From assembly GCA_015062825.1 (NCBI GenBank), contig SUTR01000028.1:1-32117 (forward strand): DNA of 32,117 nucleotides, in the 5' to 3' direction. A program made the translations under genes and the position numbers. Every line of letters begins with the position of its first letter. Position 1 is the stretch's first letter. The notes under the pieces were generated by a model. It worked only from the letters and a program-made list of their open reading frames with translations, searched no databases and had not been told where the DNA came from. Source of the DNA: Methanosphaera stadtmanae (GTDB lineage Archaea; Methanobacteriota; Methanobacteria; Methanobacteriales; Methanobacteriaceae). Shown piece by piece: positions 22,766 to 29,424 of this stretch.

Positions 22766-23089
22766 CTATTCAACATTAATAGTAAATACGTTACGGAATA
22801 ATCCTATTACAATTTCTAATTGATCATCAGTAAAACTCATGATAGTTACTTCATCATCATCTTTAACAAAGTATTCTGCATCAATTATTACTCCATTTTC
22901 ATCCAAGTAGAGATATAATCCATCAACAGTGCCATCATCACTATTATCATTTAGATAAATTTCAAATTTAATTACCATATCTACTGCTTTAACTTCATTG
23001 TAGCTATAATCAGGGTCAATAAGTTTCCTTTGTAATGCTTCTGTTAATTCTATCATTCTTTCTTCTAATTTATCCTTATATTCTGTCAT
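22766..23089 (-). CDS. Hypothetical small acidic protein
   Basis: I do not recognise this 107-residue protein. It begins MTEYKDKLEERMIELTEALQ (probably helical), followed by beta-like segments (VDMVIKFEIYLND, then DGLYLYLDENGVIIDAEYFV) and a final helical stretch FTDDQLEIVIGLFRNVF. It is strongly acidic, has no Cys, His or Trp, and has no signal peptide or membrane segment, so it is likely a soluble cytoplasmic protein. The ATG is preceded by AGGGG at good spacing, and codon use looks like its neighbours, so it is probably a real gene. It is divergent from the flippase gene. Confidence 0.7.
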   Translation of the reverse strand: MTEYKDKLEERMIELTEALQRKLIDPDYSYNEVKAVDMVIKFEIYLNDNSDDGTVDGLYLYLDENGVIIDAEYFVKDDDEVTIMSFTDDQLEIVIGLFRNVFTINVE

Positions 23090-23306: not shown

Positions 23307-24860
23307 TTGACAGATAAAAAATCTAAACTTGCCGCTGGAAGTATTATCATTATTTTAGGGTCGATTATCCTAAGATTAGGCGGATTTATATATAGATTTA
23401 TATTAAGTAGATTATTATCTCCAACAGGTTATGGAATTCTTGGTTTAACCCTACCATTTCAGAATATATTCATTATAGGTGCATCAGGAGGAGTACCACC
23501 GGCAATTGCTAAATATGTTTCACAATACAAGGCAATAGATAATGAAGATATGGTTCATCAAACAATAGTTACGGGTATTAAACTGATGATATTCATGTCG
23601 GTAATTGCAGCATTAGTTATGTTTTTAATAGCTGAACCTGTTGCAATAGACATGTGGCACAAACCAGAAGCCTTGTTACCATTAAGATTAGTTTCAATTA
23701 TCATTCCATTTAGTGTTCTTGTTGGTTCATTTAGAGGAGTTTTTCAAGGTCTCTATGATATGACCAGCATATTCTTTAGTAAATTTATTGAACAAATATT
23801 TACCATCATATGTGCATCAGCACTAGTAATTGTTGGATGGTACGCAGCAGGTGCAGTTATTGGAACAGCACTTGGATTTTTAGCATCACTTCTTGGTACA
23901 TATTACCTTTTCAGAAAGGATATGAACAATTATTATACTAGTCATGAATTTACAAAGATTACATTTAAAGAAGAATTAAATATAATGGTTACTATAATGA
24001 AATTTTCCATACCTGTAGTTATATCAGGTATTGCAGAAATATTTCTATATGATACAGGAACATTCTTTATTGGAATGTTTTTACCAGCATTTTATGCAGG
24101 ATTCTTCACTAATGCTAGTGCTATTGCACGAATTCCATTGATAATTGCCAATTCAGTATCAACATCAATATTACCAGCAACAAGTGAAGCAGACAGTCTA
24201 AAAGATAAAGAATTAATGCGAATGTATATGCATCAATCCTATAGATATACGGCAGCTACAACACTTCCAATATCAGCTTTTATAATGATATATGCAACAC
24301 CATTAATGATATTGTTATTTGGTGGTGAATATGCTCCGGCAGCATCTGCATTATGGATACTTGTAGGAGGAATGTTTTTCTTCTCTATTTATTTAATAGC
24401 TTCAAGTATGTGTCAAGGATTAGGAAAACCTACTTTTCCAATGTATGCATTGATAGTTGGAGCAATTGTCAATGCTATAACAGGATATATATTAATTCCA
24501 AAATTTGATATTTCAGGAGCTGCAATATCAACTACACTTGCAACATTTGTATTAATGGTAATGACACTATATGAATTAGTAAGATTAACAGGAATAAATC
24601 CACCATATAAAGACTTGATAAAATTATTCTTTGCAACAATTGTTATGATAATAATAATGTATTTAATTCCAAAGACAATTCTTGGAATGATAATCGGAGG
24701 AATAATAGGAATAATAGTATATATAGTTATAGTAGTATTTACCAAGGCAATTAAAGAAGAAGATGTTGCATTTATAGAACATTTTGTAAACAAAACAGGT
24801 CCTTTAAAGAAATATCTTTTAAAAATAGTTGAAAGGATAAAAATTTATTTGAAAGAATAA
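23307..24860 (+). CDS. Polysaccharide/lipid-linked precursor flippase (MOP superfamily)
   Basis: Integral membrane protein with about 14 predicted transmembrane segments over 517 residues, typical of Wzx/MurJ-like flippases that move lipid-linked saccharides across the membrane. The N-terminal segment (GSIIIILGSIILRLGGFIYR followed by FILSRLLSPTGYGILGL) and the GASGGVPPAIAKYVSQY loop are characteristic. The start codon is TTG at 23307, with a strong SD AGGAGG seven bases upstream. It lies beside gatD-murT, so flipping of a pseudomurein precursor is a plausible role, but teichoic-acid-like or other glycan substrates cannot be excluded. Confidence 0.88.
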   Translation: MTDKKSKLAAGSIIIILGSIILRLGGFIYRFILSRLLSPTGYGILGLTLPFQNIFIIGASGGVPPAIAKYVSQYKAIDNEDMVHQTIVTGIKLMIFMSVIAALVMFLIAEPVAIDMWHKPEALLPLRLVSIIIPFSVLVGSFRGVFQGLYDMTSIFFSKFIEQIFTIICASALVIVGWYAAGAVIGTALGFLASLLGTYYLFRKDMNNYYTSHEFTKITFKEELNIMVTIMKFSIPVVISGIAEIFLYDTGTFFIGMFLPAFYAGFFTNASAIARIPLIIANSVSTSILPATSEADSLKDKELMRMYMHQSYRYTAATTLPISAFIMIYATPLMILLFGGEYAPAASALWILVGGMFFFSIYLIASSMCQGLGKPTFPMYALIVGAIVNAITGYILIPKFDISGAAISTTLATFVLMVMTLYELVRLTGINPPYKDLIKLFFATIVMIIIMYLIPKTILGMIIGGIIGIIVYIVIVVFTKAIKEEDVAFIEHFVNKTGPLKKYLLKIVERIKIYLKE

Positions 24861-24874
24861 ATTTTACTAATTTC

Positions 24875-24882
24875 TTTTTTTT
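24875..24882 (+). terminator. T-tract terminator of the flippase gene
   Basis: Eight T residues begin 15 bases after the flippase stop and run into the stop codon of the convergent gatD (24881-24883). The two 3' ends are therefore nearly back to back. Confidence 0.45.
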
Positions 24883-25606
24883 ATCCATATAATTTTATAA
24901 TTTTTTCATGAGCTTTCATTTCAATTGAATCATCTAATTTTTCTAATGAATCAATAGAATACTTATTTTGTAGTGCTTTTAAGATTAGATAATCAGCCAG
25001 ATGAGGATTTTTTGGAAGTACCGGTCCATGCAAATATGTTCCAATAAAGTTTTTATATACCAGACCCTCTTTTTTATCAGTATCATTATTTCCAAAACCT
25101 TTAATTACATCACCCAAACAATCATGATTACTATATGTTCTTCCACCATGATTTTCAAATCCAACAATAGTTTTTGGAGTAATATCCAATGAAGTTTTAA
25201 TGATAATATTTCCTATCAATCGTTTACCAGTACTTGATTTGCTAGTATAATCCAAAATATTAAGTCCGGGTAACTGATTTCCAAATTTATCAATATATTT
25301 TTCCCCCAATAATTGATAGCCACCACAAACAGCAAATACGACCTTATTTTGCTCTATTAATTCCTGAAATGTTTTTTTATATTTAAGAAAATCTTCATAT
25401 ACTATTTGTTGTGATTTATCAGATCCACCACCCATAAAAAATAAATCACCATCTGATAAATCTATATCATTTTCAGAATCTGAAAAATTATATGTATTTA
25501 CAGTAATACCCCTATCCTCAGCTCTTTTTTGTAAACATTTGATATTTCCCGTATCACCATATAAATTTAGTAAATCAGGATATAAATGTATAATATTCAA
25601 TTGCAT
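24881..25606 (-). CDS. gatD: GatD-like glutamine amidotransferase
   Basis: Class I (CobB/CobQ-type) glutaminase subunit that releases ammonia from glutamine for its partner MurT. The nucleophile Cys94 is in VFAVCGGYQLLGE, and His193 in IGTYLHGPVLPKNP is the probable catalytic His. The opening LNIIHLYPDLLNLYGDTGNI is typical of GatD. The length is 241 residues from the ATG at 25606, which has GAGG upstream; an in-frame TTG at 25612 is less likely. It follows murT by about ten bases, so they form an operon. In Staphylococcus aureus the pair amidates glutamate in lipid II; here the target is probably a pseudomurein precursor. Confidence 0.88.
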   Translation of the reverse strand: MQLNIIHLYPDLLNLYGDTGNIKCLQKRAEDRGITVNTYNFSDSENDIDLSDGDLFFMGGGSDKSQQIVYEDFLKYKKTFQELIEQNKVVFAVCGGYQLLGEKYIDKFGNQLPGLNILDYTSKSSTGKRLIGNIIIKTSLDITPKTIVGFENHGGRTYSNHDCLGDVIKGFGNNDTDKKEGLVYKNFIGTYLHGPVLPKNPHLADYLILKALQNKYSIDSLEKLDDSIEMKAHEKIIKLYG

Positions 25607-25615
25607 AAACAAACC

Positions 25616-26956
25616 TCATTTATTTACTACTTTATCTATATAATCCCTTGTTTCAAATATTGCAGTATATGTTGGTAATACATAAACTATTTCTACATCA
25701 TCTTCTATGGCTTCATCTATTGCTTTATACATATCATTTATTATATGAATCTTATTGATTTCTACATTATCATATTTCTTTTTTAATGCAATATCTTCTG
25801 ATCTTCTCCCGCTACAATAATATTTATTTATGGTCTCATCATTAGTACACAACGTATTTGCATCCCAAATCCAAGAGACATCACGTCCATCAGCCATATT
25901 ATCATTTAAGATATGTAATATTGACTTCTTTCGAGTGTCGTGGGAAATTATTCTAGTTACCTGACTTAGACCTATAGGATTTTTAGTTAAAATAACCTTT
26001 ATTATCCTATTTTTATAATTGAAATCTTCCATACGACCTAATGAAAATGAAAAATTTTGTATGGAATTAATAACATTCTTGCTATCTAATCCTAATTCCT
26101 GTGTTAATGCAAATACTCCGCATACATTATATGCATTATATAATCCAATATAAGGATAATTGATTTCATATTCATTATTATTATTATCAGTTATAGTAAT
26201 TAATTGAGAATTAGATAATTCCTTTACATCTTTTACCATGAAATCCTTTTGTTTATTATTAAATCCACAAACTTCACAGCAATAATCACCTAAATGTCCA
26301 TAGGTATGTTTATTATATACAATCTTATTTGAACATATAGGACATTTATTTAATAAAAGATTAGTTTCTAATATTTTATTAGACTCCACATCCAATCCAA
26401 ATGTTACAATTGAATTATCCAGTTTATTTTTGAATTGATTAACATATGGATCATCACAATTAATTATCAAATTACAATTGGGCAATGCTTTGATATCTTC
26501 ATATACCTCATCAATTAATCTTTCAATCTCACCATACCTGTCAAGCTGATCTCTGAAGAAGTTTGTTACTATTAAATAATCTGCTTCCAAATATTTTCCT
26601 ACATGATCTAATGAACCCTCATCTACTTCAAATATTCCATAATCATATGAATCCAATGTATTTTTGACATAAGATGAACATAATCCATTAATCATATTAG
26701 CTCCTTTAAGATTTGATAAAATCACATTACCTTTTAAGATATGATTAATTAAATTATTTGTTGTAGTTTTACCATTTGTTCCCGTGATTAATATAATACG
26801 ATTACATTTTTCATTTACAACATCAAGAAATGAATTATCAATAAATAATGCAACTTTACCCGGAAATGATGTTCCATTTCTTTTAAAGAGTTTTAATCCA
26901 AACATCACAAATTTGGCCATGTATAATGCTATTATATTCCTAAGTTTAGATGTCAA
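25616..26956 (-). CDS. murT: MurT-like Mur ligase
   Basis: ATP-dependent Mur-ligase-family partner of GatD. The P-loop TGTNGKTTT is at residues 58-66, followed by the central domain motif FEVDEGSLDHV. A four-Cys zinc ribbon is inserted as in bacterial MurT (Cys205, Cys208, Cys227 or Cys226, Cys230). The C-terminal DUF1727 domain carries DGRDVSWIWD (356-365), which includes the catalytic Asp region of S. aureus MurT. The length is 446 residues. The start codon is TTG at 26956 with AAAGGAGAG upstream. A short hydrophobic N-terminal stretch may be peripheral to the membrane. It likely activates a Glu or other carboxylate of the pseudomurein precursor for amidation. Confidence 0.87.
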   Translation of the reverse strand: MTSKLRNIIALYMAKFVMFGLKLFKRNGTSFPGKVALFIDNSFLDVVNEKCNRIILITGTNGKTTTNNLINHILKGNVILSNLKGANMINGLCSSYVKNTLDSYDYGIFEVDEGSLDHVGKYLEADYLIVTNFFRDQLDRYGEIERLIDEVYEDIKALPNCNLIINCDDPYVNQFKNKLDNSIVTFGLDVESNKILETNLLLNKCPICSNKIVYNKHTYGHLGDYCCEVCGFNNKQKDFMVKDVKELSNSQLITITDNNNNEYEINYPYIGLYNAYNVCGVFALTQELGLDSKNVINSIQNFSFSLGRMEDFNYKNRIIKVILTKNPIGLSQVTRIISHDTRKKSILHILNDNMADGRDVSWIWDANTLCTNDETINKYYCSGRRSEDIALKKKYDNVEINKIHIINDMYKAIDEAIEDDVEIVYVLPTYTAIFETRDYIDKVVNK

Positions 26957-27289
26957 AATTATCTCTCCTTTAAATAATTATTATTTTTCCATTAGAACAT
27001 GAAAATTATTAAAATATAAATATTTAATATATGATGATATAACTCTGTTAAAATTCAGTTATCATCTTTTCTTCTTTTAATATTGAAATAATTAGCTTTC
27101 TATAATTTTAAAACTTATAATTATTATGTTTTTTATAGTATTTAATTATATTCTGAAAATTCCTATTTTAACTTATTATCGAAAAAGAATATCTTATTAT
27201 GAATTTCTCAGACATTCAATATAAGAAATAAAATTAGAAGCGTTTAATATACTTTTTATTCTTTTAGAATAACTTGAAAATGAAAATTT
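26957..27289. other. AT-rich intergenic region between acd and murT
   Basis: Contains a bulged dyad, GATGATATAACT (27033-27044) facing AGTTATCATC (27057-27066), and a 7-bp hairpin TTATTCT-ttt-AGAATAA (27256-27272). The murT promoter must lie in the left part; TATA-like candidates are too numerous to choose. No reading frame or RNA gene was recognised. Confidence 0.4.
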
Positions 27290-27319
27290 AAAAAAAAAAT
27301 GATTAAGAAAGAAAAAAAA
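27290..27319 (-). terminator. T-tract terminator of the acyl-CoA synthetase gene
   Basis: On the minus strand two T runs (eight at 27312-27319 and ten at 27290-27299) follow the stop codon within 35 bases. Confidence 0.55.
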
Positions 27320-27324
27320 GAAGG

Positions 27325-29424
27325 TTATAATTTAATTTTTATATCTAATGCACTAGAACCTTCTTCATAACAGAATACAGGGTTAATGTCTAACTCTGTG
27401 ATTTCTGGGAAATCAAGTGTTAATCTAGCAACACGTTTAAGTGTATCTTTAACTGCTTCTATGTCACATGGAGCATCTCCACGATAACCTTCAAGTAATT
27501 TACTTACTTTTGTACTTTTGATTTGTTCATCAATAGCTTCATCAGTTAATCCATAACCTAATTTAAAGTTTACATCATTAATTAGGTTTACATAGATTCC
27601 ACCCATTCCAAATCCGATAATTGGACCAAATTGAGCATCACGTAACATACCGACAAGTACTTCTTGTCCTTTAGGCATCATTTTTTGTACTTCTACTCCA
27701 TCAGGCACAACATCAGGATGGGCTTCTTTAGCACTTGCTATAATTTGTTCAAATTTCTCTTCAACTTCTTCTTTAGAGTTGATATTTACTTGCACTCCAC
27801 CAATATCAGTTTTGTGTAATATTTTATCGGATGCTATTTTAAGTACTACTGGATATTGCATGTCTTCTGCTGCTTGACCTGCTTCTTCTTTTGTTGTTGC
27901 AAGAACAATTGGTGCTGCTGAGATACCATATGCTTTTGCTACTTGATATGCTTCACTTCCAATGAGTGCATCTTTTCCACTTGCTTTTACAGATTCTATG
28001 ATTTTTGCAGCTTCTTCTTTATCTATTCCTTCAAGATTATCTATTGCTGATTTATGTGATTTTTCTTTGATTTCTGAGAATTTGGCCATTCCTTTAAGTG
28101 CTACAACTGCTGTTTCTGGGAATATGAATGTTGGTATATCATGTTCACGTAATACTAAGTTTTCTTCTACAAATGTAGGTCCACCCATGTTAACTACCAT
28201 GATAGGTTTATTGAATTTATTTTTAGCATCAACAATTGCTTCTCCTACTTCTTTAGGTTTGTATGATGCTGTTGGACATGCCATGATAATTGCACTGTCT
28301 ATGTAGTCTTCTGCAAGTACAATCTCCAATGTTTTTTCATATGCTTCAGGTGATGCATCACCTAATACATCTATAGGATTATGTACACTTCCTTCATCTG
28401 GAATAACTTCTCTGAGTTTAGCCATGGTTTCATCAGTAAGTTCTGCAAGTTGTAAACCTTCTTCTTCAATTTTATCAGCTGTTAGTACTCCTCCACCACC
28501 TGCATTAGTAATTACGGCTATGTTTTTACCTTTTGGAAGGTCGGTTTTTGCGAATGCAGTTCCTAAGTCAAATAGGTCTTGCATGGATCTTGCTCTCATT
28601 ACTCCACAGTTTTCAAATGCTGCATCAAATGCAAAGTCATTTCCTGCTAAAGCTCCTGTGTGTGATGATACTGCTTTTGCACCTGCCTGTGAAGAACCAG
28701 ATTTGAGTAATATTACTGGTTTTTTCTTAGTTACTTCTTTCATTACTTCAATGAATCTTTCACCTTCACTAATACCTTCAAGGTATCCTAAGATTACATC
28801 TGTTTTATCATCATCTGCAAGTTCTTCTATTACATCAATTTCTGATACATTTGCTTTATTTCCTAGACTAACTACTTTACTGAATCCAATTCCTTCAGAA
28901 ACACTCCAGTCGATAATAGCTACAGTCATTGCACCACTTTGTGATACAAATGCGATGTTTCCTGGTTCTGGCATTATTTGTGCAAATGATGCGTTAAGTG
29001 GAGTATGTACATCTAAGCTTCCTAAACAGTTTGGTCCTTGAACATTCATATCGTATTTTTCTGCTATAGCAGATAACTCTTCTTCAAGTTTAGCTCCTTC
29101 TCCTCCAACTTCTTTAAATCCTGCTGTTAAAACAATTACGTTTTTAATTCCTTTTTGTCCACATTCTTCAAGAGAAGCATTAGTAAATTTGGAAGGTATT
29201 GCAATAACTGCTAAATCACATTCTCCTTCAATGTCTAATACAGTCTTGTATGCTTTTAATCCTAAAATATCCTCTTCTGCTTTGATATTGATTGGATATA
29301 TTTCTCCTTGGTAACCACATGTTTTTAAGTTATCAGTAACTATATAACCTAATTTTCCTTTTTGGTTTGATGCGCCTATTACAGCCACTCCTCTTGGATT
29401 AAATAATCCTGTGAGATCTTTCAT
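27325..29424 (-). CDS. acd: ADP-forming acetate/acyl-CoA ligase, fused alpha-beta
   Basis: NDP-forming acyl-CoA synthetase that interconverts acyl-CoA plus ADP and phosphate with the acid, CoA and ATP. The alpha part has the CoA-binding Rossmann fold (VAVIGASNQKGKLGYIV, 14-30), PNCLGSLD (131-138), the SQSGAMTVAI segment (161-170) and the phosphorylated His255 in SSHTGALAGND. The beta part is an ATP-grasp domain (about 475-699) with His537 in ILHKTDIGGV and GFGMGGIYVNLINDVNFKL. The length of 699 residues is normal for fused forms. The ATG has GGAGA upstream. The leader is about 100 bases and holds two dyads. The in vivo direction and acid are not known from sequence. Confidence 0.93.
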   Translation of the reverse strand: MKDLTGLFNPRGVAVIGASNQKGKLGYIVTDNLKTCGYQGEIYPINIKAEEDILGLKAYKTVLDIEGECDLAVIAIPSKFTNASLEECGQKGIKNVIVLTAGFKEVGGEGAKLEEELSAIAEKYDMNVQGPNCLGSLDVHTPLNASFAQIMPEPGNIAFVSQSGAMTVAIIDWSVSEGIGFSKVVSLGNKANVSEIDVIEELADDDKTDVILGYLEGISEGERFIEVMKEVTKKKPVILLKSGSSQAGAKAVSSHTGALAGNDFAFDAAFENCGVMRARSMQDLFDLGTAFAKTDLPKGKNIAVITNAGGGGVLTADKIEEEGLQLAELTDETMAKLREVIPDEGSVHNPIDVLGDASPEAYEKTLEIVLAEDYIDSAIIMACPTASYKPKEVGEAIVDAKNKFNKPIMVVNMGGPTFVEENLVLREHDIPTFIFPETAVVALKGMAKFSEIKEKSHKSAIDNLEGIDKEEAAKIIESVKASGKDALIGSEAYQVAKAYGISAAPIVLATTKEEAGQAAEDMQYPVVLKIASDKILHKTDIGGVQVNINSKEEVEEKFEQIIASAKEAHPDVVPDGVEVQKMMPKGQEVLVGMLRDAQFGPIIGFGMGGIYVNLINDVNFKLGYGLTDEAIDEQIKSTKVSKLLEGYRGDAPCDIEAVKDTLKRVARLTLDFPEITELDINPVFCYEEGSSALDIKIKL

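Follow-up and report, generated by a model that had tools for sequence, protein, structure and literature searches.

The window analysed here, a 32,117-base stretch that makes up the entire contig C3 (SUTR01000028.1) of a 2.61 Mb Methanosphaera stadtmanae assembly (GCA_015062825.1), carries adjoining genes for MurT and GatD, the two proteins that in bacteria amidate D-isoglutamate in lipid II. Sequence and model comparisons support a genuine, well-preserved MurT/GatD amidotransferase pair in a pseudomurein archaeon. We consider it probable that the pair amidates the pseudomurein peptide, with the alpha-carboxylate of the gamma-linked L-Glu as the likeliest position, and that it does so as an optional decoration, the flippase encoded next to it being most likely incidental. 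The case draws on homology, catalytic residues, the predicted MurT fold, the codon pattern, gene co-occurrence and the pMur ligases, from which we infer activity, substrate and position. The features of the pair are:

25616..26956, minus strand: MurT, 446 amino acids (aa), ATP-dependent Mur-ligase-fold subunit (Pfam, PDB matches, residue census, model)
26968-26963, minus strand: GGAGAG preceding the MurT start codon, which is TTG (sequence)
24881..25612, minus strand: GatD, glutamine amidotransferase subunit (Pfam, PDB matches, residue census)

Family, fold and gene structure of the pair

Both proteins passed the Pfam cut-offs: MurT scored 112.7 bits against MurT_C (cut-off 25) and 84.6 bits against Mur_ligase_M (cut-off 24), and GatD scored 129.1 bits against GATase_3 (cut-off 27). 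Among solved structures, the pair was best matched by MurT and GatD chains of S. aureus and streptococci, with E 1e-69 for the S. aureus MurT structures and E about 6e-62 for S. aureus GatD. An AlphaFold model of MurT, built from a 30-sequence alignment, reached a mean predicted local distance difference test score (pLDDT) of 89.0 and a predicted template modelling score (pTM) of 0.84. When it was compared with the PDB, ranks 1-13 were all MurT chains, and rank 14 was the archaeal pMurC 6vr7.

A sequence-only reading of the region had placed three genes, murT, gatD and a flippase gene, between 23307 and 26956, and open frames were found exactly there. The likeliest start of GatD is the ATG at 25606 (241 aa), 9 bp past the MurT stop. 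We number GatD from the TTG at 25612, so that C96 and H195 in this text are the Cys94 and His193 of the sequence-only reading, which counted from the ATG. Besides the 9-bp gap in the window, 29 of 30 other two-gene loci have the genes on the same strand, in the same order and -74 to 184 bp apart, the remaining locus (L046) holding broken genes; murT and gatD thus appear to form a two-gene operon. Relative to locus L055, codon positions 1/2/3 differ in 127/62/210 of 445 MurT codons and in 42/20/100 of 241 GatD codons, and two more relatives give the same third-position excess. This pattern fits purifying selection on both genes.

The source Methanosphaera should itself be a pseudomurein builder, because its genome encodes pMurC, pMurD1, pMurD2 and pMurE, all scoring above the curated NCBIfam cut-offs. 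The family search also found CfbE and a MurT-like protein in the same genome.

Catalytic residues

The claim of the sequence-only reading that MurT and GatD keep the bacterial catalytic features was borne out by the Pfam and structure matches and by every motif inspected. MurT of the window carries the P-loop GTNGKT, four cysteines (Cys4; C205, C208, C227 and C230) and the stretch DGRDVSWIWD, and alignment to S. aureus identified GatD C96 and H195 together with MurT K63, E110, D112/E113, D359 and the same four cysteines. The third catalytic residue is MurT D359, aligned to S. aureus D349, so that the composite triad of GatD Cys, GatD His and MurT Asp is complete in the window (C96, H195, D359). 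In S. aureus, catalytic roles have been assigned to C94, H189 and D349 (PMC6113224), and the P-loop Lys and the D112/E113 pair are required according to Morlot et al. (PMC6085368).

A residue census was made over 33 archaeal and 60 bacterial MurT rows and 30 archaeal GatD rows, after removal of L110, L111 and L112 as duplicates, with L103-L107 likewise unused and rows outside the length limits excluded. Among the archaeal MurT rows, the four cysteines and D359 are present in 33/33, the SWIWD places in 32-33/33 each, K63 in 31/33 and D112 in 32/33; the ATP-Mg residues as a group (P-loop Lys, E110, D112/E113), all present in the window, occur in 31-32/33. The conserved Cys4 ribbon is a putative zinc site. 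In GatD, H195 is found in 30/30 archaeal rows and C96 in 29/30 (Ser in L067). The loop NFFRDQLDRxGE is common to archaeal and bacterial MurT; it has no His, unlike its counterpart in other Mur ligases (Morlot et al., PMC6085368).

The MurT exceptions are L071 (G143), which is truncated, and L069 (G058). The MurT encoded at the latter locus (L069:8907-10211) is of full length and adjoins a GatD, but has lost the P-loop Lys along with E110 and E113; it may represent a dead or repurposed subunit.

Distribution and decay

The sample comprised 149 genomes of the order (90 of them good) and a phylum set of 151. MurT_C was found in 34/149 order genomes (20/90 good) and in 35/151 of the phylum set, the additional carrier being G149, which belongs to another family and has an adjoining GatD. 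GatD was found in 33/149 genomes, namely in 32 of the 34 MurT carriers and in G114, which holds only a short GatD remnant, interrupted by an internal stop and lying close to the end of its contig. In the two MurT carriers without GatD, G079 and G144, the contig ends at the expected gatD position. Both genes are in pieces in G129 and MurT is in pieces in G143, breaks that could stem from draft-assembly errors.

For comparison, pMurC was present in 140/149 genomes (88/90 good) and in 29/34 of the MurT_C genomes, the five misses being 64-90% complete. Among 14 control genomes, MurT_C was found only in Corynebacterium glutamicum and Lactococcus lactis; it was not found in the archaeal controls M. 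jannaschii, H. volcanii, S. acidocaldarius and M. acetivorans (4 genomes only). The sequence-only reading had named the presence of the pair, in an unrelated context, in methanogens without pseudomurein as evidence against a wall role, and in this thin sample of four archaea no such case was seen. Published archaeal MurT comes from Methanopyrales and Methanobacteriales (Lupo et al., PMC11915815).

The MurT-like protein, found in 82/149 genomes, was considered as a stand-in for MurT, and we saw no sign of this: no association was detected among the 90 good genomes (both 10, MurT only 10, MurT-like only 41, neither 29; Fisher p 0.61) or among all 149 (15, 19, 67 and 48 in the same classes; p 0.17). 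The pair behaves as an optional wall decoration that is lost and exchanged between lineages.

Substrate and proposed mechanism

Pseudomurein holds gamma-linked Glu (PMC4592898, PMC12996149) and has been described as containing "several isopeptide bonds" (PMC12820599), its peptide linkage being treated also in PMC11111885. It is reported to contain L-amino acids only (PMC12996149). Of the synthetic substrates, the endoisopeptidases PeiW and PeiP prefer Glu-gamma-Ala (PMC4592898), and a synthesis of UMP-Glu-Ala and UMP-Glu-Ala-Lys has been described (PMC12996149). Because of the gamma linkage, the N-acylated Glu should have a free alpha-carboxylate, as D-isoglutamate does in murein, and bacterial MurT targets just such an internal gamma-linked Glu (PMC6113224, PMC6085368). 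The sequence-only reading had argued that the archaeal pair must act on another carboxylate or another substrate. The literature suggests otherwise: the gamma-linked Glu would offer the same free group as in murein, and the pair therefore need not act on a different one.

In the mechanism that we propose, GatD (C96 and H195, completed by MurT D359) would free ammonia from glutamine, while MurT would bind ATP at its P-loop, activate the carboxylate as an acyl phosphate and couple this to the GatD-derived ammonia. The target would be the free alpha-carboxylate of the N-acylated, gamma-linked L-Glu at the base of the peptide, a local match to murein D-isoglutamate apart from chirality, and amidation would take place on a UDP- or lipid-linked precursor.

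Several observations weigh against this assignment. First, the NCBIfam cut-offs for lipid II isoglutaminyl synthase (NF045635/NF052464 and NF045636/NF052463) were not reached, MurT scoring 263 and 270 of 800 bits and GatD 195/400 and 254/450 bits. Second, a binding change that would fit the step from D-Glu to L-Glu is not visible among the conserved residues. Third, no published pseudomurein amide came up in our literature search, which covered papers on amidation mostly at the level of titles; the amidation passages of PMC11915815 concern D-Glu in Staphylococcus, and the main text of PMC12996149 makes no mention of MurT. Fourth, the pair lies on contig C3, while pMurC, pMurD1 and pMurE lie on C11 and pMurD2 on C49, so that linkage of the pair to the pMur cluster (clusters A/B of Lupo 2025) was not seen. 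Fifth, 70/90 good genomes are without MurT_C and 69 of these have pMurC; most pseudomurein builders sampled thus build their walls without the pair. Sixth, in many other genera the pair sits among Toprim, integrase-type, BioY and DUF1284 genes, not among wall genes.

Among the alternatives, the one that survives best, though we hold it to be unlikely, is that the pair amidates another carboxylate of pseudomurein. Glu at position 5, which is proposed to cross-link to Lys (PMC11915815), would have a free alpha-carboxylate too, and N-acetyltalosaminuronic acid, as a uronic acid, offers a carboxylate of its own. Against both stand the use of an internal gamma-linked Glu by bacterial MurT and the active-site loop, which the archaeal rows keep unaltered. 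It is less likely still that the pair serves a substrate outside the wall, such as a coenzyme glutamyl tail or a corrinoid-type carboxylate. GatD is by family a CobB/CobQ-type glutaminase, F430 synthesis employs Mur-fold and CobB-like enzymes (CfbE, CfbB), and the genomic context at most sites is not wall-like; however, carriage in so few genomes of the order is hard to fit to a core coenzyme step, CfbE is encoded by a separate gene in the same genome, and the MurT-specific residues of the census agree with the wall enzymes.

The flippase and the variable slot

The flippase gene beside the pair and its surroundings are as follows:

22766-23089: 107-residue open reading frame (ORF) beside the flippase, without Pfam or NCBIfam match
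23307..24860, plus strand: flippase of the MOP superfamily, MurJ/SpoVB/Wzx-like, convergent with gatD (Pfam, NCBIfam)
24861..27324, no strand assigned: variable slot from the flippase to the acyl-CoA synthetase gene, holding murT-gatD here
27325..29424, minus strand: ADP-forming acyl-CoA synthetase type gene, the other slot border (acetate--CoA ligase alpha over cut-off)

The acyl-CoA synthetase gene is outside the MurT/GatD system. The 107-residue ORF adjoins the flippase in most Methanosphaera loci inspected. The recurrent order in this genus is BirA, a pyridoxal phosphate enzyme, the small ORF, flippase, acyl-CoA synthetase and Tex.

The flippase scored 99.7 bits against Polysacc_synt (cut-off 28.2) and 62.8 bits against Pfam MurJ (cut-off 27.4), and stayed below the NCBIfam equivalog cut-offs (SpoVB, the best, 152.8 of 372.3; MurJ TIGR01695, 60.8 of 235.55). 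It thus resembles MurJ and SpoVB of the MOP superfamily in Pfam and differs from them at the equivalog level. Flippase homologues (E 1e-60 or better) were found in 20/20 Methanosphaera, 18 with a copy of at least 52% identity, and homologues occur in 140/151 phylum-set genomes (91/91 good ones). The flippase is one of two paralogues found in the source genome (G000). In the four genomes inspected (G000, G008, G014 and G010), the second flippase gene lies at a locus that we take to be of the mtd-hisB type.

The slot could be judged in 15 of the 20 Methanosphaera genomes. The flippase and synthetase genes are 84-361 bp apart in 11 of them, and 2346-2957 bp apart with the pair between them in 4 (the window, G102, G088 and G047). 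Of the 11 insert-free genomes, G020, G011, G141 and G079 hold the pair elsewhere and 7 are without it. The slot was left unjudged in G129 and G029, where contigs end, in G051, where the context differs, and in G052 and G123, which lack a window-type flippase. The broken pair of G129 lies towards the synthetase, with an ORF of 804 residues in between, and it likely sits in the same slot.

The sequence-only reading had proposed an amidation and export module, in which the flippase moves the amidated lipid-linked product. The adjacency itself was confirmed, and the flippase is MurJ/SpoVB-like by Pfam. MurJ homologues are cited as candidate pseudomurein exporters (Leahy et al., PMC2812497). All three genomes of genus g2 that have the window-type flippase (L211:6268-9569, L213:5169-12172 and L214:1019-10369) carry it at a distance of 0.3-6.4 kb from the MurT-like gene, so that this flippase type may have some functional tie to MurT-family ligases. 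In two relatives that are nearly identical to each other, a transglutaminase-like gene separates gatD from the flippase. The functional part of the proposal is nevertheless weakened, because the slot is empty in 11/15 genomes judged, flippase homologues are widespread and the neighbours of the pair differ elsewhere. Moreover, the flippase is close to the pair in only 3/33 other loci, all Methanosphaera, several loci being cut by contig ends; a second flippase gene exists; and flippase and gatD lie tail to tail with 20 bp between them and are therefore not co-transcribed. We regard the export module as improbable; the adjacency probably arose by insertion, without a functional tie between flippase and pair.

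Neighbourhoods elsewhere

The comparison across the order that the sequence-only reading had suggested found no conserved wall neighbourhood of the pair across the loci, and envelope-type neighbours appeared at single sites only; enrichment of neighbours was judged without a formal test. In other genera, integrase-type genes occurred in 12/33 loci and Toprim genes in 11/33, along with BioY, DUF1284 and ATP-grasp genes. The other neighbours scanned encode chorismate synthase, CbiX, AIR synthase, PCNA, tRNA pseudouridine synthase, EamA and ABC-2 transporters, nitroreductase, FMN reductase, a solute-binding protein, a cation ATPase, DUF1297/DUF1246, GNAT and aldo-keto reductase, and some are without match.

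At L065:262-3723, genes for a PAP2 phosphatase, DedA/VTT, MurT and GatD stand in line with gaps of 0-80 bp, a possible operon with lipid-carrier recycling genes. At L056, a glycosyltransferase gene lies 20 bp downstream of gatD. A transglutaminase-core protein is encoded near the pair in two genera (L060:4643-5233 and L067:91-684); L061 shares the transglutaminase-like cluster of L060, and the L067 copy is five genes away. Transglutaminases are proposed pseudomurein cross-linkers (PMC11915815). Ig-like surface proteins are encoded at L046 and L049, and an ExbB-type gene lies at L045.

Movement and phylogeny

Judged by its neighbours, the pair occupies at least five sites in Methanosphaera: the flippase slot, L047/L062, L040, L065 and L072. 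A MurT+GatD tree was built from 61 rows, with bacteria represented by the first 28 rows holding both proteins and Caldisericum not included. The archaeal rows fall into a single group (100/99) that also includes L108, and the sister is a Dictyoglomaceae metagenome-assembled genome (MAG; 100/100). The copy of G048, which belongs to Methanobrevibacter (genus g4), falls within the Methanosphaera copies alongside G100 (g17), and a constraint keeping g4 together was rejected (approximately unbiased (AU) test, p 1.75e-79). On the G048 contig, a neighbouring gene is 76% identical to 2/3 other g4 genomes and was not found in three Methanosphaera. Misbinning of the contig is unlikely because this neighbouring gene is g4-like; a Methanobrevibacter holds a Methanosphaera-type copy of the pair.

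Two further transfers were considered and set aside. The grouping of Methanosphaera copies with G149 (98/95) might suggest a cross-order transfer, but a single family clade was not rejected (AU p 0.101). At L108:5500-8258, an archaeal-type MurT-GatD lies on a contig from water buffalo colon that was binned as Clostridia. This pair is nested in Methanobrevibacter and sits at the contig edge, with a guanine-plus-cytosine content of 0.34 versus 0.52-0.60 in the bacterial-looking part, and the stretch attached to it resembles intergenic DNA of Methanobrevibacter at 90-91%. This could equally well be an assembly chimera or a very recent transfer from archaea to Clostridia.

Relation to known systems

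Compared with S. aureus and S. pneumoniae MurT/GatD (PDB 6GS2/6H5E and 6FQB), the pair has the same adjoining genes, P-loop, acidic pair, Cys4, shared C-H-D triad, HGP replacing HPE, and fold. It differs in that the host wall is pseudomurein, MurT is about 30% identical and the archaeal substrate is a predicted one.

MurT/GatD of Methanobacteriales have already been published by Lupo et al. (2025, PMC11915815), who described the same gene pair in the same archaeal order and a bacterial origin near Caldisericum exile, beside which their tree places it; our tree, without Caldisericum, has the Dictyoglomaceae MAG as sister. They also described a MurT-like protein without GatD, and their account has MurT or MurT-like or both, whereas 29/90 good genomes here have neither. 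The flippase slot, the multiple sites and the intergenus transfer are not treated in the passages of Lupo et al. that we compared. New here are the patchy carriage, the broken copies, at least five sites in one genus and the Methanosphaera-type copy in Methanobrevibacter.

The MurT-like protein of Methanopyrales and Methanobacteriales shares the P-loop and Cys4 ribbon with MurT in 30/30 rows; unlike MurT, it has no DxxSWIWD, a replaced acidic pair and a His in the loop, again in 30/30 rows. The copy of the source genome (G000:C64; L003:688-2109, minus strand) had no MurT_C match. Since the GatD-contact motif and the acidic pair are gone and the loop His is that of ordinary Mur ligases, the MurT-like protein resembles a ligase that adds an amino acid more than it does an amidotransferase.

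It is doubtful that an amide next to the Ala-Lys bond shields the wall from phage PeiW/PeiP. We take M. smithii (G008), M. stadtmanae (G020) and M. fervidus (G149) to be MurT-GatD carriers. Two of these likely carriers were lysed in one study, which does not support the idea, and older reports conflict. In that study, M. smithii DSM 861 and M. stadtmanae DSM 3091 gave lysis zones of 17-20 mm, and M. thermautotrophicus and M. formicicum gave 18-22 mm (Schofield et al., PMC4592898, table 3). Of the older reports cited in PMC4592898, one found that PeiW did not lyse M. stadtmanae, another that M. wolfei lysates did not lyse M. smithii or Methanothermus fervidus, and a third that M. fervidus was lysed. 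Strain M1 was not lysed, which was attributed to Thr (PMC4592898).

Implications

With chances that we judge to be evenly balanced, the gamma-linked L-Glu of some archaeal walls may be converted to isoglutamine by MurT-GatD, encoded on a two-gene cassette that would move from one genus of gut methanogens to another and be lost time and again. The amide would then adjust the charge or cross-linking of the wall, a role that D-isoglutamine has in Gram-positives. If so, the printed wall structures that we consulted would miss a variable modification, and gut methanogens would possess a counterpart of an enzyme that is studied as a drug target in Gram-positive bacteria. Because carriage is patchy, there are natural carriers and non-carriers within one genus, so that wall mass spectrometry could answer the question without genetics.

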